Source: Roseivivax sp. THAF197b
GTDB taxonomy: Bacteria; Pseudomonadota; Alphaproteobacteria; Rhodobacterales; Rhodobacteraceae
NCBI RefSeq assembly: GCF_009363255.1
Contig: NZ_CP045318.1
Span: 1,154,001-1,218,000 of the forward strand
DNA length: 64,000 nucleotides
Direction: 5' to 3'
The translations under genes and the position numbers were made by a program. How positions within the stretch are numbered: position 1 is the stretch's first letter; each line of letters begins with the position of its first letter. The notes under the pieces are model-generated. The model searched no databases. It saw only the letters and a list, made by a program, of their open reading frames with translations, and had not been told where the DNA came from. This document shows, piece by piece, positions 2,872-34,843 of this stretch.

Positions 2872-5115
2872 ATGCCGGATCGCGGCGAAAGCGAGAGCGA
2901 AAGCCGGAAATTGCTGCGCCGGCTGCGCGACACCATGGCCGAGGAAGCCGCCGGACAGGCGCGCCTCGACAAGATCACGCATCTGACCGCCGATTCCATG
3001 GGGACGGAGGTGTGTTCCGTCTACCTGTTCCGCGACCCCGAAACCCTGGAGCTCTGCGCCACGCATGGCCTCAAGAAAGAGGCCGTGCACCAGACTCGCA
3101 TGCGGATCGGAGAGGGGCTCGTGGGCCGTGTCGCGCGCTCGGGCGAGGCGGTCAATGCCGCCGACGCGCCGTCCCAGCCCGGTTTCCGCTACATGCCCGA
3201 AACCGGCGAGGAAATCTTCTCGTCCTTCCTGGGCGTGCCGGTTCAGCGCCTGGGCGAGACGCTGGGCGTTCTGGTCGTGCAGTCCAAGGAGGCACGCGAA
3301 TTCTCCGCCGATGAGCTATACGCGCTTGAAGTGGTGGCCATGGTGCTCGCCGAGATGGCCGAGCTGGGCGCCTTCGTGGGCGAGGGCGCGGCCCTGCAGG
3401 CCCGCCACACCGAAGCGCGGCTCATTCGCGGCACGCAAGGGCAGGAGGGCACCGCCGAGGGCCATGTCTGGCTGCACGAGCCGCGCGTCGTCGTTACCAA
3501 CCTCGTGGCCGACGATCCGCAGAAGGAACATGCGCGGCTGACCGAAGCAGTGCAATCGCTGCAGGTCTCCGTCGATGATCTGTTGGCCTCGGCCGAAGAT
3601 CCCGAACAGCGCGCGATCCTCGAAGCCTACCGCATGTTTGCGGCCTCCAAGGGCTGGGTCCGGCGCATGCAGGAAGATATCGACCGGGGCCTTTCGGCGG
3701 AATCGGCGGTCGAAAAGCAGCAATCCAACGCCCGCTCGCGGATGTCCCAATCCACCGATCCCTATCTGCGCGAACGGCTGCAGGACCTCGACGATCTGTC
3801 GAACCGGCTGCTCCGGATCCTGACGGGGCAGGGCAACCATACCGGCGCGGAGATGCCCGCCGATCCCATCCTCGTGGCGCGCAATATCGGCCCCGGCGAG
3901 CTTCTGGAATACGGTCGCAGCCTGCGCGGCATCGTGCTCGAGGAAGGCTCGGTCGGCAGTCACGCGGCGATCGTGGCCCGCGCGCTGGCCATTCCGCTCA
4001 TCATCCATGCGGGCAATATCACCACCGAGGCGCTGAACGGCGATCACATCATGGTCGACGGGGATCAGGGCATCGTGCACCTGCGCCCCGACGAGACCGT
4101 GGTCGGCGCCTTCCGCGACAAGATGGCGATGCAGGCCAAGGCGCAGGAGCGCTACGCCTCCATCCGCGATGCCGATTGCGTGGCCGCTTGCGGCACCCGG
4201 GTGCATCTGAACATGAATGCGGGCCTGATGGCCGATCTGCCAAGCCTCGATGGCTCCGGCGCCGAAGGGGTCGGTCTGTTCCGCACCGAGCTGCAATTTC
4301 TGGTGCGCAACAAGATGCCCACGCGCACCGAGCTCGCCGCGCTTTACGCCCGCGTCCTCGATGCGGCCCATGGCAAGCGGGTGAATTTCCGCACGCTCGA
4401 CATCGGTTCGGACAAGGTGCTGCCCTACATGAAGCCCAACGACGAGCCGAACCCGGCGTTGGGCTGGCGGGCGATCCGCGTAGGCCTCGACAAGCCGGGC
4501 GTGATGCGGATGCAGCTGCAGGCGCTCTTCCGCGCGGCCAATGGCCGACCGCTGACGCTGATGTTCCCCTTCGTGGCCCAGCTGGATGAATTCCGCGCGG
4601 GCCGCGCCGAGGTCGAAAAAACAATCGCCCGCGAAAAGCGCCTGGGCCATCCGGTGCCCGAGACGCTGGAAGTGGGCGCCATGCTGGAGACGCCGAGCCT
4701 GGCCTTCGCGCCGCGGAAGTTCTTCGAGGAGGTCGATTTCCTGTCCATCGGCGGCAATGATCTCAAGCAGTTCTTCTTCGCCGCCGACCGCGAGAACGAG
4801 CGCGTGCGCCGCCGCTACGACACGCTCAATTGTTCCTTCCTGACCTTCATCGAGGGGATCGTGGACCGCTGCGCCGAGACGGGCACGCATCTGTCCTTCT
4901 GTGGTGAGGATGCGGGCCGACCGATCGAAGCCGCCTGCCTTGCGGCGGTGGGTCTGCGGACGCTGTCCATGCGCCCGGCCTCCATCGGCCCCGTGAAGCA
5001 CCTTCTGATGCGCGTGCGCCTCGATGAGCTGCGCGAGGTCATCAAGGGCGCCTGCCATGACGGCCACCAATCGGTGCGCGGGCCAGTGATGGACTATCTC
5101 GCCCGCGCAAGCTGA
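2872..5115 (+). CDS. ptsP: Phosphoenolpyruvate-protein phosphotransferase PtsP (EI-Ntr)
   Basis: A 747-residue Enzyme I-Ntr, the cytosolic kinase that passes phosphate from PEP to NPr in the nitrogen-related PTS. An N-terminal GAF domain (about 20-165) is expected to sense the glutamine/2-oxoglutarate balance. It is followed by the PTS-EI N-terminal helical region (about 200-330) and the phosphohistidine swivel domain with SHAAIVARALAIP, where His364 is the likely phosphorylated residue. The PEP-binding TIM barrel (about 410-740) shows GVGLFRTE and the C-terminal SFCGEDAG with the active-site cysteine. The length agrees with other alphaproteobacterial PtsP proteins. It stands alone; the partners ptsN and npr are not in this window. 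Confidence 0.95.
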   Translation: MPDRGESESESRKLLRRLRDTMAEEAAGQARLDKITHLTADSMGTEVCSVYLFRDPETLELCATHGLKKEAVHQTRMRIGEGLVGRVARSGEAVNAADAPSQPGFRYMPETGEEIFSSFLGVPVQRLGETLGVLVVQSKEAREFSADELYALEVVAMVLAEMAELGAFVGEGAALQARHTEARLIRGTQGQEGTAEGHVWLHEPRVVVTNLVADDPQKEHARLTEAVQSLQVSVDDLLASAEDPEQRAILEAYRMFAASKGWVRRMQEDIDRGLSAESAVEKQQSNARSRMSQSTDPYLRERLQDLDDLSNRLLRILTGQGNHTGAEMPADPILVARNIGPGELLEYGRSLRGIVLEEGSVGSHAAIVARALAIPLIIHAGNITTEALNGDHIMVDGDQGIVHLRPDETVVGAFRDKMAMQAKAQERYASIRDADCVAACGTRVHLNMNAGLMADLPSLDGSGAEGVGLFRTELQFLVRNKMPTRTELAALYARVLDAAHGKRVNFRTLDIGSDKVLPYMKPNDEPNPALGWRAIRVGLDKPGVMRMQLQALFRAANGRPLTLMFPFVAQLDEFRAGRAEVEKTIAREKRLGHPVPETLEVGAMLETPSLAFAPRKFFEEVDFLSIGGNDLKQFFFAADRENERVRRRYDTLNCSFLTFIEGIVDRCAETGTHLSFCGEDAGRPIEAACLAAVGLRTLSMRPASIGPVKHLLMRVRLDELREVIKGACHDGHQSVRGPVMDYLARAS

Positions 5116-5296
5116 CCCGCGCGGGTTCAGACAGGCCTGCGGCAGGATTGACACCCATTGCGGGACTTTCGAGGAAACGCGCTAAGTCATGCAGTGATTG
5201 CATACCGGCTATTCACCCAGCGCGGTTTCACCACAGCCTGAATCCCGATAGGCGCCGGGGCTTGCGATACTTCTGTCCGTTGGAAAAGGCCCCTTC

Positions 5297-6925
5297 ATGT
5301 CCCGTGCCCCGCTCGCCCGCTTCGCGCAAAGCCTCTCCTCGGCGGATCTGAACATCCTGCCGCAGGGCAAGTTGAGCCCGTCGCAGCTCAAGACCGAACT
5401 CCTGTCGGGCTTGACCGTCGCACTGGCGCTGGTGCCCGAAGCGGTGGCCTTCGCCTTCGTGGCCGGCGTGCATCCGCTGGTCGGTCTTTACGCGGCCTTC
5501 CTTGTCGGTCTGATCACCGCGCTGATTGGCGGACGCCCCGGCATGATCTCGGGTGCGACGGGCGCGCTGGCGGTCGTGATGGTGGCGCTCGTGGCGCAGC
5601 ACGGGGTGGAATACCTCTTCGCGACCGTGGTCTTGATGGGCATTCTGCAGATGACCGCCGGTGTCCTTGGCTGGGGGAAATTCATCCGGCTCGTGCCGCA
5701 TCCGGTGATGCTGGGCTTCGTGAACGGGCTGGCCATCGTGATCTTCCTCGCGCAGCTCACGCAGTTCCAGGTGCCGGGCACCGCCGAGGTTTCAGGGCAT
5801 GGCGCATCGGGCGGGCAATGGCTGCCGATGGCGCAGATGATCCCGATGCTGGCCCTCGTCGCGCTGACCATGGGCGTGATCTGGCTGCTACCCAAGCTGA
5901 CCAAGGTCGTGCCCGCGCCGCTCGTGGGCATCGTGGTCACGGCGGGTATTGTCATCGGCTTCGGCATCGACGTGCCGCGCGTGGGCGATCTGGCCTCGAT
6001 CCAGGGCGGCTTGCCGAGCTTTCATGTCCCGACCGTGCCACTCAATCTCGAAACGCTCGAGATCATTCTGCCCTACGCGGTGATCCTCGCCGCGATCGGT
6101 CTCATCGAAAGCCTGCTGACGCTCAACCTCGTGGGCGAGATGACGGGCCGGAAGGGCGGCGCGAGCCAGGAATGCGTGGCCCAGGGTGTGGCCAATACCG
6201 TGACCGGCTTTTTTGGCGGCATGGGCGGTTGCGCGATGATCGGCCAGTCGATGATCAACGTGAAATCGGGCGGGCGGACCCGGGTCGCAGGCGTTGCTGC
6301 CGCCTTGTTCCTGCTGGTCTTCATCCTCTTCGCCGCTCCGCTGATCGAGCTCATCCCGCTCGCTGCGCTGGTGGGCGTGATGTTCATGGTGGTGATCGGC
6401 ACCTTCGCCTGGAACTCGCTGAAGATCCTCACCCGCGTGCCCAAGATGGACGCCTTCGTGATCGGCCTCGTGACCGTCGTGACGGTGCTCGAAGACCTCG
6501 CCGTGGCGGTGGTGGTGGGCGTGATCGCCTCTGCGCTCGAATATGCCTGGACCAATGCGCGCCGGATCTCGGCCAAGACCTACACCACGCCCGAAGGCGC
6601 GAAGGTCTACCAGGTCAACGGGCCGCTCTTCTTCGGCTCGGCCGACGGGTTCAACGAGATGTTCGATCCCGAGAACGATCCGGGTCTCGTCATCGTGGAT
6701 TTCGCCGACAGCCGCGTGGCCGATCAATCCGCCCTGCAGGCGATCGAGGCGGTGGCCGAGAAATACGAGGCAGAGGGCAAGCGGATCGAGCTGCGCCATC
6801 TCTCGCGCGATTGCCACTGGCTGCTGAAGAAATCCGGGCACCTCGTGATCGAGGCCGATGACGACCCAGATTACGGCGTCGCGGTGAATTACGGCGTGCG
6901 CACGGGCATCATCGGCGGGCACTAG
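5297..6925 (+). CDS. SulP family anion transporter with STAS domain
   Basis: A 542-residue inner-membrane transporter of the SLC26/SulP family. The first half is a run of hydrophobic helices with the family features LTVALALVPEAVAFAF (near residue 40) and GATGALAVVM. The C-terminal part (about 435-535) is a cytoplasmic STAS domain with the pattern IVDFADSRVADQSALQAIE. Members move sulfate, bicarbonate, dicarboxylates or chloride. The substrate cannot be decided here, and no sulfur-assimilation or carbonic anhydrase gene is adjacent. It is monocistronic in context, with 180 bp upstream and a gene-free repeat region downstream. Confidence 0.92.
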   Translation: MSRAPLARFAQSLSSADLNILPQGKLSPSQLKTELLSGLTVALALVPEAVAFAFVAGVHPLVGLYAAFLVGLITALIGGRPGMISGATGALAVVMVALVAQHGVEYLFATVVLMGILQMTAGVLGWGKFIRLVPHPVMLGFVNGLAIVIFLAQLTQFQVPGTAEVSGHGASGGQWLPMAQMIPMLALVALTMGVIWLLPKLTKVVPAPLVGIVVTAGIVIGFGIDVPRVGDLASIQGGLPSFHVPTVPLNLETLEIILPYAVILAAIGLIESLLTLNLVGEMTGRKGGASQECVAQGVANTVTGFFGGMGGCAMIGQSMINVKSGGRTRVAGVAAALFLLVFILFAAPLIELIPLAALVGVMFMVVIGTFAWNSLKILTRVPKMDAFVIGLVTVVTVLEDLAVAVVVGVIASALEYAWTNARRISAKTYTTPEGAKVYQVNGPLFFGSADGFNEMFDPENDPGLVIVDFADSRVADQSALQAIEAVAEKYEAEGKRIELRHLSRDCHWLLKKSGHLVIEADDDPDYGVAVNYGVRTGIIGGH

Positions 6926-7086
6926 CCCCGCCGCGCGCGCCGCACCGCGTCTTCGGCAAGAGGCCCGGGCAGGAAGCGGCGTCCTTCGTCTCAGAGCGGA
7001 CCCCGCCCGTGGCATTCTTACCCGGACCTGCAAACACCGGGCGGGCCACGTTGCGCTTCACCTTTCCCGTAAACCGCCGGGGTGAA

Positions 7087-7130
7087 TTGGCGGGCCCGGC
7101 CCGCCAAGAGGGGCAGGGCCCCTCCCTCCC
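7087..7130. repeat. GC-rich intergenic double hairpin (REP-like)
   Basis: Between the SulP gene and the flavin reductase is a 10+1+10 perfect inverted repeat (TTGGCGGGCC/GGCCCGCCAA, 7087-7107), followed by a second hairpin, GAGGGGCAGGGCCCCTC (7108-7124). The second unit recurs almost unchanged at 34996-35018, which suggests a dispersed element. It may also end transcription of the convergent genes, although there is no T-run. The rest of 6926-7086 holds nothing I recognise. Confidence 0.6.
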
Positions 7131-7346
7131 CGGATCTCACTCGCCCGGGCGTTTGAGGGCGAACTTTTCGCGCACCACGGTGTAGTCGCGATGCCCCATG
7201 CGCGAGAGCGGGTTGTAGCGCAGCACGTCGAACACCCCCGGATCTCACTCGCCCGGGCGTTTGAGGGCGAACTTTTCGCGCACCACGGTGTAGTCGCGAT
7301 ACCCCATCCGCGAGAGCGGGTTGTAGCGCAGCACGTCGAACACCCC
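7131..7346. repeat. 108-bp tandem duplication spanning the 3' end of the flavin reductase gene
   Basis: Two directly adjacent 108-bp copies (7131-7238 and 7239-7346) differ at only two bases by eye. Copy 2 encodes the last 33 codons and stop of the minus-strand flavin reductase. Copy 1 lies just past that stop and repeats the same codons and stop in the same frame, since 108 is a multiple of three. One difference would change Tyr to His in copy 1 (MGYRD to MGHRD); the other is silent. A slippage or unequal-exchange event is the simplest origin. Confidence 0.93.
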
Positions 7347-7850
7347 GTCGACCAGGCAATCGTCGCGCAGATGCACGCCCGTCACCTCGCCGAAGACGGC
7401 GAAATTGGCCTCGCCCGGCAATTGGACGATCTGCGTCAGCTTGCATTCGAGGTTGGCCGGTGCCTGCGCCACCCGCGAACAGGCGATGCTTTCACATTCC
7501 GCGCGCTCGATCTGGGCGAGGGTGAATTCGTCGGTGTCTTTGTCCCAGGCGCCCGAGGTCTGGTTCATCGCGTCGCGCATCTCGTATTCGACGATATTCA
7601 CGCAGAAGACGCCCGTATCGCGGATATTGGCGACGCTGTCCTTGGTGTCGCCGCGATCCTCTTTTGCCGAGGTCGAGGCGAACATGACCTGCGGCGGCAC
7701 ATAGGCCACGGCATTGAAGAACGAATAGGGCGCGAGGTTCTCCGAGCCATCCGCCCCACGGGTCGAAATCCAGCCGATGGGCCGCGGAGTGACCACGGCG
7801 TTGAAGGGGTTGTGCGGCAGGCCGTGGCCGTCTTCGGGGCGATAGAACAT
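7245..7850 (-). CDS. Flavin reductase family protein (FMN-binding split barrel)
   Basis: A 201-residue cytosolic protein of the flavin reductase-like, FMN-binding split-barrel family. The signature HNPFNAVVTPRPIGWISTRG at residues 13-32 and the N(L)APYSFFNAV segment are typical. Members reduce flavins with NAD(P)H or bind FMN for a partner oxygenase; no partner gene is adjacent. The start ATG at 7850 has AGGAG 5-6 bp upstream. Its final 33 codons plus stop are duplicated in tandem beyond the stop codon, so loss of the TGA would lengthen the protein by 36 codons. It diverges from the GNAT gene. Confidence 0.9.
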   Translation of the reverse strand: MFYRPEDGHGLPHNPFNAVVTPRPIGWISTRGADGSENLAPYSFFNAVAYVPPQVMFASTSAKEDRGDTKDSVANIRDTGVFCVNIVEYEMRDAMNQTSGAWDKDTDEFTLAQIERAECESIACSRVAQAPANLECKLTQIVQLPGEANFAVFGEVTGVHLRDDCLVDGVFDVLRYNPLSRMGYRDYTVVREKFALKRPGE

Positions 7851-8028
7851 GCTTTCTCCTCGGATGCGAATTCAGCCACAGGTAGACCGTACTGGCGCGG
7901 GGCCGACAAGTCCCCGGCAGCGGTTTGCCGAAGGGCCACGCGCATGTTACCCGGCGAAGCGGCCCGCAAGGGCCAATGAGCGGGCCGCATGGGCCAAGGG
8001 GCAGGGCCGCGAGGGGGCGGGCAGGGAT

Positions 8029-8514
8029 TTGTACATCCTCGATCAGGAACGCGCGGCGGATTGGTGGGAGGTCGAGGCCCTCTTCGATCTGTCCTTCGCG
8101 CCGGGCCGCACGGCGCTTTCCTCCTACCGCCTGCGTGAGGATGTGCCGCCCGTGGCGCAGCTCTGCCGCGTGGCCCGCGCGGAAGATGGCGGACAGGTCG
8201 GCGGCGCGATCCGCTATTGGCCGGTCCAGGTGGGCGGCACCGATGCGCTGCTGCTCGGCCCCATCGCCGTGCACCCGACTGCGCAGGGCGAGGGCCTGGG
8301 CGGTGCGCTCATCCGCGACAGCCTGGAACGCGCGCGCCCCATCTGCCCGCGGATCCTGCTGGTGGGCGATGCGCCTTATTACAGCCGCTTCGGCTTTGCC
8401 CGCGCCACGGGCGTCGAGATGCCGCCGCCCACGAACCCGGACCGCGTGCTGCAGCTGGCCCTGACGGACGGCGCCTGGGACGGGGTTGCGGGCACGGTTA
8501 CGCGCGCCGCTTGA
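8029..8514 (+). CDS. GNAT family N-acetyltransferase
   Basis: A protein of about 161 residues with the GNAT acetyltransferase fold. The acetyl-CoA-binding motif A is seen as LGPIAVHPTAQGEGLGGALI, and the YYSRFGF segment near the C-terminus is typical of the YhbS-like subgroup. The substrate is unknown. The frame stays open upstream to an ATG at 7849, but that stretch is Arg/Ala-rich, unlike the family, and overlaps the divergent flavin reductase start. Homology-like sequence begins at YILDQERAADWW, so a TTG start at 8029 with GAGGGGG 11 bp upstream is proposed. The start is the uncertain part. Confidence 0.8.
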   Translation: MYILDQERAADWWEVEALFDLSFAPGRTALSSYRLREDVPPVAQLCRVARAEDGGQVGGAIRYWPVQVGGTDALLLGPIAVHPTAQGEGLGGALIRDSLERARPICPRILLVGDAPYYSRFGFARATGVEMPPPTNPDRVLQLALTDGAWDGVAGTVTRAA

Positions 8515-8546: not shown

Positions 8547-9311
8547 ATGACCGGCACCGACCTGATCCCGACCTCGACCGACACGGAAATCGCGGCCCTC
8601 GCGCGCCGTCACAAGCGCGCGGGCGGTGTGGGGCTTCAGCTTCTCAACGTGCTGGGCAGCCAGGCGGAGAACCTGCTCGAACGCCTGCCCGACCGGGTCA
8701 AGGACCGGCTCGAGGCATCGACCCAGCGCGCGCTCGAGACGGCGATGCGGGCAGCCTCGTCCTCGCGCAGCGTCGTGCCGGATCAGAAAAGCTGGCTCAA
8801 CACCGCGCTCACGACCGCGATGGGCGCGGCCGGCGGCGCGGGCGGTCTGCCCACCGCGATGGCCGAGCTGCCGGTGACGACCACGGTCCTTTTGCGCGCG
8901 ATCCAGGGCATCGCGGCCGAGCATGGCTTCGATCCTGCCGATCCCGAAATTGCCAAGGAATGCCTGATGGTGTTCGGCTCGGCGGGCCCTTTGGAAGCAG
9001 ACGACGGCGCGGATATGGCCTTCCTGTCGGCGCGCGTCACCCTCACGGGCGCCACGGTGCACGGTGTGATCGCGCGGGTCGCCCCCCGTCTTGCCACGGT
9101 GCTGGGCCAGAAGCTCGCCGCGCAGACCATTCCGATCCTCGGCGCGGCAGCAGGGGCCGCCACCAACTACGCCTATACCAGCTATTACCAGGAAATGGCC
9201 CATGTGCATTTCGGCCTGAAGAAGCTGGCCGAGCAGACGGGCACCCCGCGCGAGGCGCTCATCGCCCAGCTGCGCGACGCGGTCGAGCGTCAGCCCCGCC
9301 GGTCCCGGTAG
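8547..9311 (+). CDS. EcsC family protein
   Basis: A 254-residue protein matching the EcsC family (named from Bacillus EcsC, biochemical role unknown). It is rich in short hydrophobic, Gly/Ala-dense segments (AMGAAGGAGGLPTAMAELPVTTTVLLRAIQGIA near 90-125 and PILGAAAGAATNYAYTSYY near 200-220) and is probably membrane-associated. An N-terminal amphipathic helix precedes these. It lies 32 bp behind the GNAT gene and could share its transcript. The annotation rests on the overall pattern rather than on catalytic residues. Confidence 0.8.
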   Translation: MTGTDLIPTSTDTEIAALARRHKRAGGVGLQLLNVLGSQAENLLERLPDRVKDRLEASTQRALETAMRAASSSRSVVPDQKSWLNTALTTAMGAAGGAGGLPTAMAELPVTTTVLLRAIQGIAAEHGFDPADPEIAKECLMVFGSAGPLEADDGADMAFLSARVTLTGATVHGVIARVAPRLATVLGQKLAAQTIPILGAAAGAATNYAYTSYYQEMAHVHFGLKKLAEQTGTPREALIAQLRDAVERQPRRSR

Positions 9312-10353: not shown

Positions 10354-10884
10354 ATGAAAAAGGTCGAGGATTACATCCGCACCATCGCCGATTTTCCCCA
10401 TGAGGGGATCATGTTCCGCGATGTCACCACGCTTTTTGCCGATCCGCGGGGCTTTCGCATGGCGATCGATCAGCTTCTGCACCCTTACGCGGGCGTGCGC
10501 TTCGACAAGGTCGTGGGGCTCGAGGCGCGGGGCTTCATCCTGGGCGGAGCGGTGGCGCACCAGCTTTCGGCGGGCTTCGTGCCCATTCGCAAGAAGGGCA
10601 AGCTGCCGGGCAAGGTGATCTCCGAAAGCTATACGCTGGAATACGGGGAAGCGGTGGTCGAGGTCCATGATGACGCGCTGCAGCCCGGTGAAAAGGTGCT
10701 CGTGGTCGACGATCTTCTGGCCACGGGCGGCACGGCCGAGGCGGGCATAAAGCTCTGTGAACGGCTGGGCGCCGAGGTCATCGGCTGTGCGTTCATTGTC
10801 GATCTGCCCGATCTCGGCGGGCGCGCGAAGCTCGAAGGCATGAACATGGAGGTGCATGCGCTTTGTGCATATGAGGGCCTGTGA
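10354..10884 (+). CDS. apt: Adenine phosphoribosyltransferase
   Basis: A 176-residue type I phosphoribosyltransferase converting adenine and PRPP to AMP in the cytosol. The N-terminus [21 protein letters not shown] and the PRPP-binding loop [14 protein letters not shown] (about 125-138) are characteristic of Apt. ATG 10354 is preceded by GAGGAAGGGA. It sits 34 bp after mtnP, forming a small methylthioadenosine/adenine salvage operon. A possible promoter for glcB lies about 20 bp past its stop. Confidence 0.96.
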
Positions 10885-26382: not shown

Positions 26383-28221
26383 ATGCTTGATGACGCGCCA
26401 CGGGGCCCCATTGCCCGGATCGAGAACCTGCGGGTCGAATTTCAGACGCGGGCGGGCACCGTCGCAGGCGTGAAGGATCTGTCCTTCTCCATCGATCCCG
26501 GAGAGACGGTCTGCGTCGTGGGCGAAAGCGGATCGGGCAAGTCCGTCTCCTCGCTGTCGCTGATGCGGCTCATTGAATTCTCGGGCGGGGCGATTGCGGG
26601 CGGAACGCTGGTTTTCGACCGCAAGGAGGGCGGCACGCTCGATCTGGCAGGGGCCGAGCAGGACCTGATGCGCACCATCCGAGGCAACGAGATCGGCATG
26701 ATCTTCCAGGAGCCGATGACCGCGCTGAACCCCGTCTTCACCATCGAACGGCAGCTCACCGAAGGGCTGCGCGTGCATCGTGGCATGGACCAGAAGGCTG
26801 CCCGCGCCCGTGCGCTGGAGCTTCTGCGCGAGGTGCGCATTCCCGAACCCGAACGCCGCCTGAAGCAATATCCTCACGAGCTTTCGGGCGGCATGCGCCA
26901 GCGGGTGGTGATCGCCATGGCGCTGGCCTGCAAGCCGCGGCTGCTCATTGCCGATGAGCCGACGACCGCGCTCGACGTGACGATCCAGGCGGAGATCCTG
27001 GCGCTGATCGACCGACTTAAGCGCGAAACCGGCACGGCGGTGATGTTCATCACGCATGACATGGCTGTGGTGGCACAGATGGCCGACCGCGTCGTGGTGA
27101 TGTTCCGGGGCGAGAAGGTAGAGGAGGGGCCCGTGGCCGACATCTTCGCAGCGCCCACGCATCCCTATACGCAGGCGCTTCTGGCGGCGGTGCCGAAGCT
27201 CGGAGAGATGGCGGGCACGGATGCGCCAGCCCCCATGAAGCTCGTGGGGCGCGACGATCAGGCGACCGATCCGATCCCCGGCACGGACGAGACGCTGTTG
27301 CGCGTCGAGGGGCTGACCACGCGCTTTCCGGTGCAGGGCGGGTTCTTCCGCCGGACGGTGGCCAATGTGCACGCGGTCGAGGATCTGTCCTTCACGATCA
27401 ATCGCGGCCAGACGCTGAGCCTTGTGGGCGAATCGGGCTGCGGGAAATCCACCGCGGGCCGGTCCATTCTGCGGCTGGTGGAGCCGCTTTCCGGCAGTGT
27501 CGACCTCGATGGTACGGATATCATCGGGCTGAATGACCGCGATCTGCGCCGCGCGCGGGTCGATATGCAGATGATCTTCCAGGATCCCTTCGCCTCGCTC
27601 AACCCGCAGATGCAGCTGGCCGATCAGGTGGCGGAGCCCTTGTGGAATTATGACGGGCTGGGGCTGCCCAAGGATGGCATCCGCGACAAGGTGGCGAACC
27701 TGTTTGACCGGGTGGAGCTGCCGCGCAGCTTCATGCAGCGCTATCCGCACGAGTTGTCGGGCGGGCAGCGCCAGCGGATCGCCATTGCCCGGGCGCTGGC
27801 GCTCAATCCGAAGCTGATTGTCGCGGATGAGGCGGTCTCGGCGCTCGACGTGTCGGTGCAGGCGCAGGTCCTGAACCTGATGCTGGAGCTGCAGGCCGAA
27901 ATGGGGCTGTCCTTCCTGTTCATCTCCCACGACATGGCGGTGGTCGAGCGCGTCTCGCATTACGTGGGCGTGATGTATCTGGGCCGGATCGTCGAGATCG
28001 GCCCCCGCCGCGCGGTCTTCGAGGACCCGCGCCACCCCTATACGCAGGCGCTGATGAAAGCGGTGCCCATTGCCGATCCCGCGCGGCGCAAATCCGAGCG
28101 GGACCTGAACTTCAAGCCGATCCCGTCACCCATTCACCCGGTGGGGTATGAGCCTGTGGCGAATGTGTACGAGGAAGTGGGGCCGGGGCATCGGGTACTG
28201 GTGTCGGAGAGTGGCTACTGA
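26383..28221 (+). CDS. ABC transporter ATP-binding protein with two fused ATPase domains (DppD-DppF-like)
   Basis: A 612-residue cytoplasmic protein joining two oligopeptide-type ATPases. Domain 1 has Walker A GESGSGKS (residues 47-54), signature LSGGMRQR and Walker [13 protein letters not shown]. Domain 2 has Walker A GESGCGKS (about 349-356), signature LSGGQRQR and [12 protein letters not shown]. In domain 2 the usual Glu-Pro of Walker B is Glu-Ala (DEAVSALD), common in such fusions. It should power the two permeases encoded divergently. ATG 26383 has a GAAGGAG site. The last 178 bp of the gene occur a second time 1,243 bp downstream. Confidence 0.95.
28044..28221. repeat. Direct repeat copy 1: 3' end of the ATPase gene
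   Basis: This 178-bp segment, the last 58 codons and stop of the ATPase gene, is repeated at 29287-29464 with the same length and 15 base differences counted by eye. About 70 bp in the middle are identical. Most differences outside the first 35 bp fall in third codon positions. Confidence 0.95.
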
Positions 28222-28368
28222 GGGAACGCCTTCGGTGGGGTCGCGGGCGTTCGTTGCACGAACCCAAAACCGGGTTCTCATTCGTGTGACGGTGCAAGCC
28301 CTATACAAGCGATTCCCGTTATGCGAGTCTCAAATACATAACTAAAACACCATATAATTGAGGTAGTT

Positions 28369-29157
28369 ATGAGAACGATCGGGACAGCCGTGGCTATTGT
28401 CGCGGCCAGTGCATCATTTGCGCACGCACAGGAAAAAGTGTTCGGTGAAGTCGGGCTCGGCTATGGCCGGGCAACCAGCGAAGACTTCGACGGCGCGGCT
28501 GATACGATAACCCTCCAGGGCGGTGCGGCCTTCGTCTCCGGCGCGGGTCTCGGGATCCAGCTCGACGGATTTGCGGCCAACACCCATGTCGATGATTACG
28601 GCGATCTCGATACCAGCTATTTCGCGACGCATATCTACGGCGATTTCGGCCGCGGCAAGGTCGGTCTGTTCGGCGGCTCGCTCAATCTCGGTGAGATCGA
28701 GATCTATGATGTCGGCTCGGCGGACCTGGATCAGACGGTCTCCACCTACGGGATCGAGGGCCAGATGACGCAGGGTCTCTATACCTTCGGTGGGTATCTC
28801 GGCTCTGCGGATATCGAGGGCGTGGACGATGTCGACGTGACCCTGATCGGTGTCGGCGGCGACGTGGCCCTGTCCGAGACGCTTCAGCTGAGCGCGAACT
28901 ACGACTCGCTGTCCGCGTCCCTCGACGGGGTCGACGACAATCTCGACGTCAACACGCTCTCCGTCGGGGGGAATTACTTCGTGGCGGCAGGGGATGCGCC
29001 GGTGAGACTATCCGCCGGTCTGTCGCGCAGCTCTGCAAGCTTTGGCGGCGAGACCTCCAATGCCACCTCCGTGAATGTGGGCGCGACGCTGCTGTTCGGC
29101 GGCTCCCGCAATGCCAACCGCGAGAGCCTGTTCGACTCGTTCCGCGTTCCGTTCTGA
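28369..29157 (+). CDS. Small outer-membrane beta-barrel-like protein
   Basis: A 262-residue exported protein. A signal peptide is evident (MRTIGTAVAIVAASASFAHA, cleavage after AHA near residue 20). The mature part is an Asp/Gly/Ser-rich series of alternating strands (VFGEVGLGYGRATSEDF, GIQLDGFAANTHVDDYG, LQLSANYDSLSASLDG) and ends in the aromatic residue Phe, as outer-membrane barrels do. It resembles short porin-like proteins of Rhodobacteraceae; no specific family is claimed. It lies between the two copies of the ATPase 3' end and has its own terminator, so it is probably a single-gene unit. Confidence 0.75.
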   Translation: MRTIGTAVAIVAASASFAHAQEKVFGEVGLGYGRATSEDFDGAADTITLQGGAAFVSGAGLGIQLDGFAANTHVDDYGDLDTSYFATHIYGDFGRGKVGLFGGSLNLGEIEIYDVGSADLDQTVSTYGIEGQMTQGLYTFGGYLGSADIEGVDDVDVTLIGVGGDVALSETLQLSANYDSLSASLDGVDDNLDVNTLSVGGNYFVAAGDAPVRLSAGLSRSSASFGGETSNATSVNVGATLLFGGSRNANRESLFDSFRVPF

Positions 29158-29183
29158 GGCCATCCCCGCCTGTGTTCGGAGGG

Positions 29184-29217
29184 AAACCGGGTCGCGCGCA
29201 AGCGCGGTCCGGTTTTT
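29184..29217 (+). terminator. Rho-independent terminator of the barrel gene
   Basis: AAACCGG (29184-29190) and CCGGTTT (29209-29215), with an inner GCGC-GCAA-GCGC stem and a following T-run, start 27 bp after the stop. Confidence 0.85.
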
Positions 29218-29286
29218 CGTTTTTCTTGAGGGGTATGTGACGCGCTTGGCTTGCGGTCTCGGCCTGTGCACATATCATCGGGTGAT

Positions 29287-29464
29287 GCAGGCGCTGCTGG
29301 CCGCGGTGCCGGTTGCGGACCCAGCGCGGCGCAAATCCGAGCGGGACCTGAACTTCAAGCCGATCCCGTCACCCATTCACCCGGTGGGGTATGAGCCCGT
29401 GGCGAATGTGTACGAGGAGGTGGGGCCGGGGCATCGGGTTTTGGTGTCGGAGAGTGGGTATTGA
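29287..29464 (+). pseudogene. Truncated second copy of the ATPase 3' end
   Basis: This 178-bp stretch reads [15 protein letters not shown]... and ends in the same ...LVSESGY stop as the fused ATPase gene, without any ATPase domain before it. The frame is intact and the changes relative to the full gene are mostly silent or conservative (MKAVPI against LAAVPV). That suggests it comes from a related functional gene rather than from drift of a recent copy. It cannot encode a working ATPase. It marks the right edge of the barrel-gene segment and abuts the AT-rich gene. Confidence 0.85.
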
Positions 29465-29557
29465 GTGGAGAGTTTTTGAAAACTAGAGATGCAAGATAGT
29501 TACTGTTATTGTGCCTGCCGAATAAGACGTGTTCAAGAAAAATTTCATGAGGTGTAA

Positions 29558-30670
29558 GTGTCTAATAGAAATAGTCTTAAAAGAAATGAATTGTTGAGAA
29601 AGACGCCAGCATGGAGCGGATTTTACCTGCATTTTACTGGTGGATTTTATGCCTCTATGATTTCGAAGGGTCTCTGGGATATTGGGCCGATTTTATACGA
29701 AGGGCGGCCCGCTATAAGTGGAAGCTATTCTATGGGCGAAGTTCAGGCAATAGCACGTCGAAGTTCGTTTCGGGCGTTAGGATTTCAGCAATCTGGTATA
29801 ATTGATGGGAGTTACTACTCCTCTTGGATTCCAGTGATGGACGGAAAGAATAATCACTCTGAATCACCGGTTATGTTATGGGGTAATATCGCATCGCATT
29901 TATTAAAAGAGCGAAAAGAACGGTTTAGTGATAGTCGTTTGTGCGCGGATGATATCGACATGGAAAAGATATTTGATAGTCGAGGGGGTATTGAGGCTCT
30001 GGCCCACTTCATTCGTCTAAGCCTCGAGAGTATGGATATAACGGTAGAAGCTCTGGCGTCATACTATAACGAACAGCTTCTCAATGGGATGTTTGACGGT
30101 AGAGTGTCTGGTGAGCGTTCGGATAATACGCAGTCGCGGCTACTATATGCAAATATCCATGCATTTTTTGTTCATATTGGCGCTGCGAGGGACTATCTGG
30201 CAAAATTTATTGCTTTACGCAATCACAACATATCAAACAAATGCGATTCTATGGTGAAATTAGTGAGGTCTCTCAGTGTGGAAAGTTTTCCTGATGATGC
30301 AATGTTGAAGTTTCTCCTTGATTCGAAGTGTATAATTAGAAGCAGTAGCGGTAAGGGAGACTTTGAATTTTCGGGCTGGTTGAAGGATCTGTCAAGCTTA
30401 CGAAATAAGTTCATTCACCGTGAGCCGTTTGGTACTCGATCATCAGAAATGTTTGGTTCGGTAAAGCCCGCTTCGTTAGAAGATAATACAATGAGATATT
30501 TTCGGAATGTGGAAATTGAAGGGCAAGATGAGGTTGATGTTCTGGACCTCGTAGCTCGAATATATACTTTTGGTTCATACTTGTTTCACGAAATGGCCAG
30601 ATTGTCAGGTTTGAATTCTAGTGTTCAGACTCTTACGGATAAAGATTTAGTATCGCTACGAATTTCATAA
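29558..30670 (+). CDS. Orphan AT-rich gene with HEPN-type RNxxxH motif, function unknown
   Basis: A 370-residue protein that I cannot place in a named family. The start is GTG 29558 behind a weak TGAGG. The DNA and codon use are strongly AT-biased, unlike every neighbour, indicating recent transfer. There is no signal peptide or membrane helix. The C-terminal half is helical, and LRNKFIHRE contains R282-N-K-F-I-H287, the Rx4H pattern of HEPN ribonucleases. An earlier helix, AARDYLAKFIALRN (209-222), is also HEPN-like. The N-terminal half (about 1-130, Gly/Ser/Trp-rich) is unassigned. HEPN proteins are frequent toxins or defence effectors, but no antitoxin, nucleotidyltransferase or integrase is adjacent, so the role is inferred. 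Confidence 0.7.
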   Translation: MSNRNSLKRNELLRKTPAWSGFYLHFTGGFYASMISKGLWDIGPILYEGRPAISGSYSMGEVQAIARRSSFRALGFQQSGIIDGSYYSSWIPVMDGKNNHSESPVMLWGNIASHLLKERKERFSDSRLCADDIDMEKIFDSRGGIEALAHFIRLSLESMDITVEALASYYNEQLLNGMFDGRVSGERSDNTQSRLLYANIHAFFVHIGAARDYLAKFIALRNHNISNKCDSMVKLVRSLSVESFPDDAMLKFLLDSKCIIRSSSGKGDFEFSGWLKDLSSLRNKFIHREPFGTRSSEMFGSVKPASLEDNTMRYFRNVEIEGQDEVDVLDLVARIYTFGSYLFHEMARLSGLNSSVQTLTDKDLVSLRIS

Positions 30671-30804
30671 TATTTGAGGTTTGGTGTGCGCGGCATGAAG
30701 ATCATTGGCTCACTGTATTGCTAGTCTCTGACTAGAACCTCTCCGCGGTTGAATAGGTGAGTAGCTACTTCCCCCCACCACCCCCCTCCGCTATCACCCA
30801 CCCC

Positions 30805-31602
30805 ATGACCCGAACCAACATCATCTGCATCAAGTGGGGCACGCTCTTCGGGCCGGAATATGTCAACCGGCTCTATTCCGGCGTGCGGCGGAACCTCGGC
30901 ACCCCCATCCGCTTCCTCTGCATGACCGAACACACAGACGGCCTGCACCCCGATATCGAGGTGCTGAGCCTCCCCGAAGAGCCCTTCCGGGCCGAAATGG
31001 ACGCGGCGCTTGCGGTCGCCAACCGGCAGGGGGCCATGCGCAAGACCTCGCTCTTCCGCGAGGGGCTCATCCCGGATCTCGACGGGCCGGTGCTGGGCTT
31101 CGATCTCGACGTGGTCATCACCGGCGATCTGCAACCGATCCTCGAGCTTGCGCCGGGCCATGTCGCCATGCGCCACGACTGGACCGAGAAGCGGAAGGGG
31201 CGGCCCACCGGGCATGGCTCGGTCTTCCGGTATGACCCGGGCGTGCACGGCTTTCTCTATGACGATCTGGCGGAGAACCCTTATGCGGAGGTCGAAAAGG
31301 CCCGCGGGTCCGAGCAGCGCTACACCTCGCACAAGGCGATGGATCGGGGTGTCTTCACCTATATCCCCGAGGATTGGGTCGTGTCCTACAAGTACGATTG
31401 CAATCCGTTTCCGGGCAATTACCTGCGCCCGCCCATCTTGCCCGAGGAGGCGCGTGTCGTGTGTTTTCACGGCCATCCCAAGATGGATGAGGCGATCGAC
31501 GGCTATCGCGGCTCGCTCATCCGGTACTCGAAGCCGTGCCCCTGGCTGCGCGAGCACTGGATCGACCGGACGGCGGCGGATCTGGGGCCGGACTGGGCGT
31601 AG
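30805..31602 (+). CDS. Glycosyltransferase-like protein (GT-A, DxD motif)
   Basis: A 265-residue cytosolic protein starting MTRTNIICIKWGTLFGPEYVNRL, a pattern seen in small proteobacterial glycosyltransferases. GFDLDVVITGDL near residue 112 supplies a DxD-type metal/nucleotide-sugar site, and CFHGHPKMDEAI near the C-terminus resembles the end of GT-A domains. The acceptor and sugar are unknown. No polysaccharide operon surrounds it. It starts a GC-rich block after the AT-rich island and is followed by short hairpin repeats. Confidence 0.72.
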   Translation: MTRTNIICIKWGTLFGPEYVNRLYSGVRRNLGTPIRFLCMTEHTDGLHPDIEVLSLPEEPFRAEMDAALAVANRQGAMRKTSLFREGLIPDLDGPVLGFDLDVVITGDLQPILELAPGHVAMRHDWTEKRKGRPTGHGSVFRYDPGVHGFLYDDLAENPYAEVEKARGSEQRYTSHKAMDRGVFTYIPEDWVVSYKYDCNPFPGNYLRPPILPEEARVVCFHGHPKMDEAIDGYRGSLIRYSKPCPWLREHWIDRTAADLGPDWA

Positions 31603-31631
31603 AGGACCGGGCTTTATCCGGTGAGTGGTCT

Positions 31632-31700
31632 GGCGGCCTTCCGCCGAACCCCGTTTTGGCGGCATCCCGCCGAGACTATGTTTTGCGGCATCCCGCCGCG
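31632..31700. repeat. Cluster of three short GGCGG...CCGCC hairpins
   Basis: GGCGG-CCTT-CCGCC (31632-31645), then GTTTTGGCGGCATCCCGCCG (31653-31672) and a 19-nt near-copy lacking one G (31680-31698), lie between the glycosyltransferase gene and fabF. The last two units are 27 bp apart. It may act as a terminator or as a repeat element. Confidence 0.6.
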
Positions 31701-34346: not shown

Positions 34347-34843
34347 ATGAAAGAGCTGCGCGTGATCGTGACGGGCGGGACCATCGACAAGGTCCACGAT
34401 CCGGCGAGCGAAGGGCTGTCCTTTTCGCCCGACGGCGCTACGCATCTGCCGGAGATGCTGCGCATCGGGCGCTGCCATTTCCCGGTGGTCGAAAAGCTGA
34501 TGCTGAAGATTCGCTTTATTTCGACGATGCGGATCGGGCCGCCATCGCGGAGGCGGTGCGTGCCGCACCCGAGCCTTCAATTGTGCTGACACATGGCACC
34601 GGTACGATGGGGCAGACGGCGCGTTATCTCGCCGCGGAATTGGGCGACACGGACAAGTGCGTGGTGCTGACAGGCGCGATGCGGCCCTTTTCGCTTTATG
34701 CCTCGGATGGCGAGTTCAATCTCGGCGCCGCAATCGTCGCGGCACAGATCCTGGAGCCGGGGGTCTGGGGCGTGATGAACGGCCGGGTCTTCCCGGCGGC
34801 GCGGCTCGACAAGAACGTGGATCAGGGCCGCTTCGACATCTGA
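34347..34843 (+). pseudogene. Asparaginase-like gene with a single-base frameshift
   Basis: The first frame starts MKELRVIVTGGTIDKVHDP (TGGTI nucleophile motif) and runs to ...VVEKLMLK at about 34508. The next frame continues with DSLYFDDADRAAIAEAV, THGTGTMGQTARYL and LTGAMRPFSLYASDGEFNLG, ending at 34843. Adding one base at 34508 (AAGAT to AAGGAT) restores a continuous 165-residue asparaginase N-terminal-domain protein. Such short, one-domain versions occur in this lineage, so only the frameshift is abnormal. It is either a recent inactivation or a sequencing error. Confidence 0.85.

Follow-up and report, generated by a model that had tools for sequence, protein, structure and literature searches.

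ApeA is a HEPN protein that provides defence as a single gene. The protein described here, 370 amino acids long and encoded in a stretch of 64,000 nucleotides from Roseivivax sp. THAF197b (the window), would resemble ApeA in that general description; it matches no PADLOC model (E ≤ 10).

The nearest described working model for the protein encoded at 29558-30670 is Tha, an anti-phage HEPN RNase of 301 amino acids from an S. aureus prophage which, going by the available text of its report, needs the motif histidine and is activated by phage tail proteins (PMC11087260). Both are single proteins with a C-terminal Rx4H motif (RNSIMH in Tha) and an N-terminal part without an assigned domain. In that same text Tha is encoded near a phage integrase with xis in between, and homologues of the present gene also lie beside integrases. 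The two proteins differ in length; in the one described here about 80 residues follow the motif, and the conserved N-terminal domain is its own. Tha was tried as a homologue and rejected: the family profile scored 13.4 against it and, when reversed, 15.0, and only the motif is shared. A second likeness is to AbiF/AbiD (Abi_2), for which the available text reports structural similarity to Cas13 HEPN domains, abortive infection and carriage on prophages and plasmids (PMC12373285). However, no Pfam match of our protein to Abi_2 was found at E ≤ 10, Abi_2 is absent among the 25 listed of 30 Pfam families weakly matched by 67 members of the protein family, and no shared flanking RNA as in AbiF/AbiD was seen (500-bp flanks, tandem repeats, Rfam). 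The core of the protein also gives profile matches, not significant ones, to HEPN_Swt1 (PF18731) and HEPN_RiboL-PSP (PF18735); four of the six HEPN_Swt1 members used lie in open frames of more than 1100 amino acids, unlike the 370 amino acids here.

Among the papers listed on HEPN defence, hotspots and prophage HEPN proteins, as far as their available text goes, none could be tied to the family. The sequence family appears to be new and its kind, single-gene HEPN defence, already known; a family unmatched by Pfam, NCBIfam and PADLOC would be added to this kind.

The gene and its HEPN-like core

The gene starts with GTG, and GAGG is found five bases 5' of it. A reading of the sequence alone had described the gene as unlike its surroundings in base composition and codon use, and this is indeed the case. 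Its G+C content is 41.8% and its GC3 38%, compared with a GC3 of 77-89% in eight other in-frame genes of the window. The window has a mean G+C of 64.5% (sd 3.6%, 1258 windows of 1113 bp), and the lowest value away from the gene is 57.4%; the shift in composition is therefore far outside the local range. The same reading knew no family for the protein, and searches of Pfam, PADLOC and NCBIfam at E ≤ 10 likewise gave no match. A direct sequence search of the PDB returned no credible relative, and in a promoter scan sites were not more frequent than in shuffles. The features of the gene are:

29558..30670, + strand: AT-rich gene, candidate HEPN-type RNase, 370 amino acids, GTG start
29585..29992, + strand: conserved N-terminal domain, residues 10-145, with FYLHFTGG, W..P, SSW.P and LW motifs (alignments)
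30143..30427, + strand: HEPN-like core, residues 196-290, with the acidic residue in ARDYLA and RNxxxH (alignments, profile comparison)
30191..30193, + strand: D212, conserved acidic residue upstream of the motif (84 of 84)
30401..30418, + strand: R282-N283-K-F-I-H287, Rx4H motif (sequence and alignments)

The motif R282-N-K-F-I-H287 is present as claimed, and the putative second HEPN-like helix, placed at 209-222, holds D212. Loss of R282/N283/H287 among homologues had been named beforehand as grounds for dropping the HEPN assignment; the three residues are conserved down to 21% identity. In an alignment of 84 rows from both subfamilies, R282 and H287 are each kept in 83, N283 in 79, and D212 and Y213 in all 84. 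This alignment leaves out P0001, members shorter than 310 amino acids and P0065, a degenerate member in which C and Q replace R and H. When degenerate and short members are kept, as in the 67-row alignment of the query and the members from the first profile search minus P0001, the counts are 64 of 67 for R282 and H287, 59 for N283 and 66 for D212. The exceptions at R and H are P0015 (R only), P0064 (gap), P0065 and P0066 (H only, a fragment).

HEPN proteins are described, in the available text of PMC3710099, by an Rx4-6H motif, a polar residue after the arginine and, in many families, an acid in helix 2 close to the motif. The family shows all three, that is the spacing, the polar residue and an upstream acid (D212, with a putative helix placement). 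The acidic motif departs from its typical Ex3[KR] form, and position 216 is mostly A. Y170 and W274, also invariant, are not HEPN hallmarks.

Profiles were built for comparison from genome hits, six sequences per Pfam family (PF18731, PF18735); for PF18730, also a HEPN family, no genome hit exceeded the cut-off. Residues 145-345 scored 20.3 against HEPN_Swt1 and 19.8 against HEPN_RiboL-PSP, compared with 12.7 and 11.3 for the reversed family profile, and scores as high were reached by one of 300 column shuffles for Swt1 and by none of 299 for RiboL-PSP. In hhalign the E-values were weak, at 0.016 (Swt1) and 0.034 (RiboL-PSP), each from one comparison, and as far as the alignments indicate they rest largely on the motif: the RiboL-PSP match has 35 columns, mostly motif, and the Swt1 match, 86 columns long, begins at the ARDYL stretch and reaches RNxxxH. 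Three HEPN families are among the 25 listed of the 30 Pfam families weakly matched by the 67 members (best E 0.017), and the one weak HEPN match that was located, in P0067 (E 0.097), covers RNxxxH. Against PADLOC, the 67 members matched eight families with one member each (best E 0.0051). Conserved hydrophobicity gave a mixed picture of helix periodicity. On the basis of sequence, we consider it quite probable that the core of the 370-amino-acid protein has a HEPN fold.

The N-terminal domain, residues 10-145, had no PDB match better than E 0.1. Searched alone in 270 genomes it was confined to this gene, and it is a candidate sensor or regulatory part of the protein.

The chromosomal site and its cargo

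The gene lies within a segment whose left edge is the stop of a second ABC-gene tail and whose right edge is a C-rich stretch before a glycosyltransferase-like gene:

28044..28222, + strand: 3' end of the intact ABC-transporter gene (named by inspection), first repeat copy
28369..29157, + strand: gene between the two ABC tails, weak porin match (E 0.0065, below the cut-off), G+C 63%
29287..29465, + strand: second copy of the ABC-transporter gene 3' end, abutting the cargo, putative recombination scar, 164 of 179 identical to the first
29466..30767, no strand: exchangeable AT-rich cargo segment, edges matching those in two sister genomes (G004, G007)
30757..31602, + strand: conserved glycosyltransferase-like gene (named by inspection), right flank, no Pfam match

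The porin-like gene, with its host-like G+C content, is outside the cargo. The glycosyltransferase-like gene is found in all nine genomes of the genus, our own included. In three of them (again with our own) no more than 2.6 kb separate it from the ABC gene upstream, and in two (G001, G008) the distance is about 4 kb, with G+C-rich DNA in between; in the 7.6-8.2 kb upstream of it in four genomes the ABC gene was not seen. All three genomes with the short interval carry an AT-rich gene at the site, with a G+C content of 42% in the window, 43% in G004 and 42% in G007. In G004 it is a gene for 505 amino acids (L028:6132-7649) that matches RT-TIR_XII of PADLOC (2.8e-162), in that database a single-gene retron-type system. 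In G007 it encodes 335 amino acids (L025:5765-6772) and matches DUF6602 (3.9e-25) as well as the PADLOC models PD-DExK (8.3e-22) and NucC effector (2.5e-17). The edges are near-identical among the three cargoes: all start right after GAGAGTGGGTATTGAG at an ABC stop, and the C-rich stretch at which all end (CTTCCCCCCAC...CCTCCGCTA) precedes the next gene. The 1.5 kb upstream of the gene was also read for G+C content and open reading frames in 26 more genomes of the family, and no further case of the arrangement was seen.

The sequence-only reading had suspected a variable site and, at that site, a single-gene defence system. Different AT-rich genes do sit between the same flanks within the genus, and the defence hypothesis gains support from sister sites that hold a retron RT-TIR gene and a gene for a NucC-like nuclease. 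This comparison, of three genomes, is the strongest evidence for a defence role. A retron, a NucC-like nuclease or the present gene between fixed edges in sister genomes amounts to a small natural experiment, and the contents between the same two flanking genes offer a route to further unknown defence genes. The DUF6602/NucC-like PD-DExK protein of G007 is itself a candidate single-gene defence nuclease. In G004, the ABC stop and the RT-TIR start are roughly 145 bases apart, and a retron non-coding RNA would naturally fit in this gap; Rfam gave no match on L028, the gap included, or on L025.

How the cargo may have entered is suggested by duplicated flanks. In G007 a second head of the glycosyltransferase-like gene adjoins the cargo, and it is identical to the head in the window at 114 of 124 positions but to its own full gene at only 101 of 123. 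Since the partial head is closer to the gene of the window than to its own, cargo and flank appear to have arrived together from another lineage via recombination in the flanking genes. Between the partial and the full copy lies a gene for a DUF2189 membrane protein (L025:6796-8006). Repeats were also found at two loci of homologues. In L092 the 3' end of the neighbouring gene is repeated directly on both sides of the homologue (8761-9256 and 10511-10877, 85-87%), and in L007 there is a 72 bp repeat (85%) that reads by eye as the terminator behind groEL. The repeats at these two loci and in the window suggest that homologues were inserted by recombination with foreign flanking DNA.

Homologues and their surroundings

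With the single sequence as query, a search of 5.8 billion proteins returned four relatives and an exact fragment of the query. A profile of five rows raised this to at least 67 proteins, and the 67-row profile then led to a second subfamily (P0071-P0095); 8000 candidates were scored in each case. The two subfamilies reached in this way have 30-44% and 21-25% identity, respectively, to the 370-amino-acid protein in the alignment. Hosts named among the matches listed are Shimia marina, Limimaricola, Sphingomonas, Mesorhizobium and Paraburkholderia, and loci with homologues also come from Ruegeria and Sulfitobacter. The gene is rare among the sampled genomes: matches were found in four of 394 genomes of the family-level sample (the query genome, G237 and two fragments) and in four of 398 of the phylum-level sample (the query genome, G237, G720 and G870). 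Tblastn searches, with three family members against plasmids and two against phages, found none, nor did a single-sequence scan of viral contigs; two alignment-based scans of the viral contigs arrived at the same two contigs.

Neighbours were surveyed at 14 loci with an intact gene (the window, L003-L010, L033 and L092-L095). PADLOC was run on 18 chosen genes in L003, L004, L005, L009, L010 and L092, and the neighbours in L006, L007, L008, L033 and L093 were read by eye. Genes matching PADLOC models lie near the homologue in four of the 14: PifA directly adjacent (2e-225) and PDC-M48B (1.5e-151) in L010, DruA (4.8e-201) in L005, PDC-S73 (5.7e-142) and PDC-S49 (2.1e-25) in L092, and E1-E2 (2e-17) and PDC-M48A (5e-51) in L003. 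In the viral contigs L094 and L095 the homologue is directly behind an integrase on the same strand (PF00589, 3.2e-24 and 7.2e-23), and both contigs carry a GpA-type terminase (1.3e-89 and 2.6e-95); they count as one lineage, because their homologue genes are 95.6% identical. In G021 a fragment of the family (from 2962281) begins about 240 bases after an integrase (domain at 2961653-2962045). In seven of the 14 loci, besides the window, neither a PADLOC-model gene nor an integrase was noted among the neighbours scanned or read. The survey of neighbourhoods that the sequence-only reading had proposed places some homologues near PifA, DruA or PDC-S73 or behind phage integrases, and this context, a count over chosen neighbours and not an enrichment, is suggestive of defence.

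In L004 a HEPN_RES_NTD1 gene lies near the homologue. In L009 the homologue is preceded on its own strand by an open reading frame of the HATPase type (3214-3714) and then by one that Pfam does not match (3942-5207), which stops 114 bp short of the homologue; L005 also has an open reading frame of the HATPase type near its homologue (6249-8318). PADLOC gave no match for these frames, which may be partners of the homologue in some loci. The distant homologue at L093:8796-9902 (in G870) is a lone AT-rich gene, with 40% G+C in a stretch of 57%, about 1.3 kb from an open reading frame that reads as the start of an IS3-type transposase.

Proposed function and alternatives

Based on these findings the gene most likely encodes a solitary HEPN RNase of the abortive-infection type and is passed on horizontally. 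That it is a solitary phage-defence protein of a new family, in which a C-terminal HEPN RNase and an N-terminal domain bring about abortive infection, we consider probable. The RNase would be metal-independent, with R282, N283 and H287 in its active site, aided by D212, and joined to the conserved N-terminal domain of about 140 residues. The enzyme, likely a dimer, would probably stay inactive in the cell until the N-terminal domain senses a product or an effect of phage infection; the activated HEPN dimer would then cut RNA, translation would stop and the infected cell would abort phage production. We infer all of this, from the HEPN fold and the RNase activity to the dimer, the sensing and the abortive outcome. 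The conserved R282, N283, H287 and D212 are clear residues to mutate. As a mobile immune gene it would have come to lie between the ABC-transporter gene and the glycosyltransferase-like one through recombination in these two neighbours. It is tempting to go further and to regard the protein as a one-protein immune receptor, in which the N-terminal domain (LHFTGG, W..P, SSW.P, LW) has a new fold for phage sensing and is coupled to the HEPN RNase, at a cassette site where AT-rich immune genes are swapped by homologous recombination in flanking core genes without an integrase; towards this bolder version we lean slightly to the negative.

A HEPN RNase might also be the toxin of a toxin-antitoxin system, restrained by a partner (an MNT protein, or an RNA antitoxin as in AbiF) and serving maintenance of its element and not phage defence. 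Precedents are described in the available texts, HEPN toxins with MNT antitoxins (PMC3710099) and AbiF of C. difficile, a prophage HEPN-like protein under the control of an RNA antitoxin (PMC12373285), and the occurrence of homologues on viral contigs would fit as well. However, the 1.3-kb segment has no plausible second open reading frame, its 12 others (≥25 amino acids) being below the gene threshold, and it contains no small nucleotidyltransferase gene; at the other loci none was recognised by eye. There are no tandem repeats at the locus and no Rfam match at 28000-31700, and a comparison of the 500-bp flanks of 12 loci showed common DNA in the close pairs L003-L010 and L094-L095 and otherwise nothing but two weak matches (19 and 25 bp) between unlike homologues, which were taken as chance. 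With no partner frame, repeats, Rfam match or convincing shared flanking DNA, a toxin-antitoxin pair becomes less likely, and we regard it as unlikely overall; an unlinked or antisense antitoxin, or an RNA specific to the family, is possible. More doubtful still is a protein of another fold, an enzyme or a binder of nucleic acids, in which RNxxxH is convergent and which would nevertheless be defence cargo, acting for example on DNA or nucleotides. The weak profile scores, the PDB search without a credible sequence match and the invariant Y170 and W274 speak for it, and the defence argument from the site is independent of HEPN. Against it, the three published HEPN features occur together in one protein, and column shuffles rarely score as high as the family.

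The site itself raises the question whether the gene has an immune role at all or is an accessory gene, metabolic or prophage-fitness cargo, at a place prone to recombination. The interval also took up ordinary genes, the porin-like one in the window and the DUF2189 gene in G007, and the seven loci without a PADLOC-model gene or integrase in what was scanned or read would be in keeping with such a role. But these ordinary genes have a host-like G+C content (63-70%), while the three cargoes with near-identical edges are AT-rich, and both of those that can be identified are immune genes; in addition, the conserved residues resemble an RNase active site. We consider an accessory gene highly improbable and favour the solitary HEPN RNase of the abortive-infection kind.

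Downstream of the site, the window has an asparaginase-like gene (named by inspection) at 34347-34843 that appears split into two overlapping open reading frames in different frames (34347-34589 and 34556-34843). Its counterpart in G007 keeps a single frame as far as the sequence there was read, and the apparent split in the window is possibly due to a frameshift or a sequencing error.
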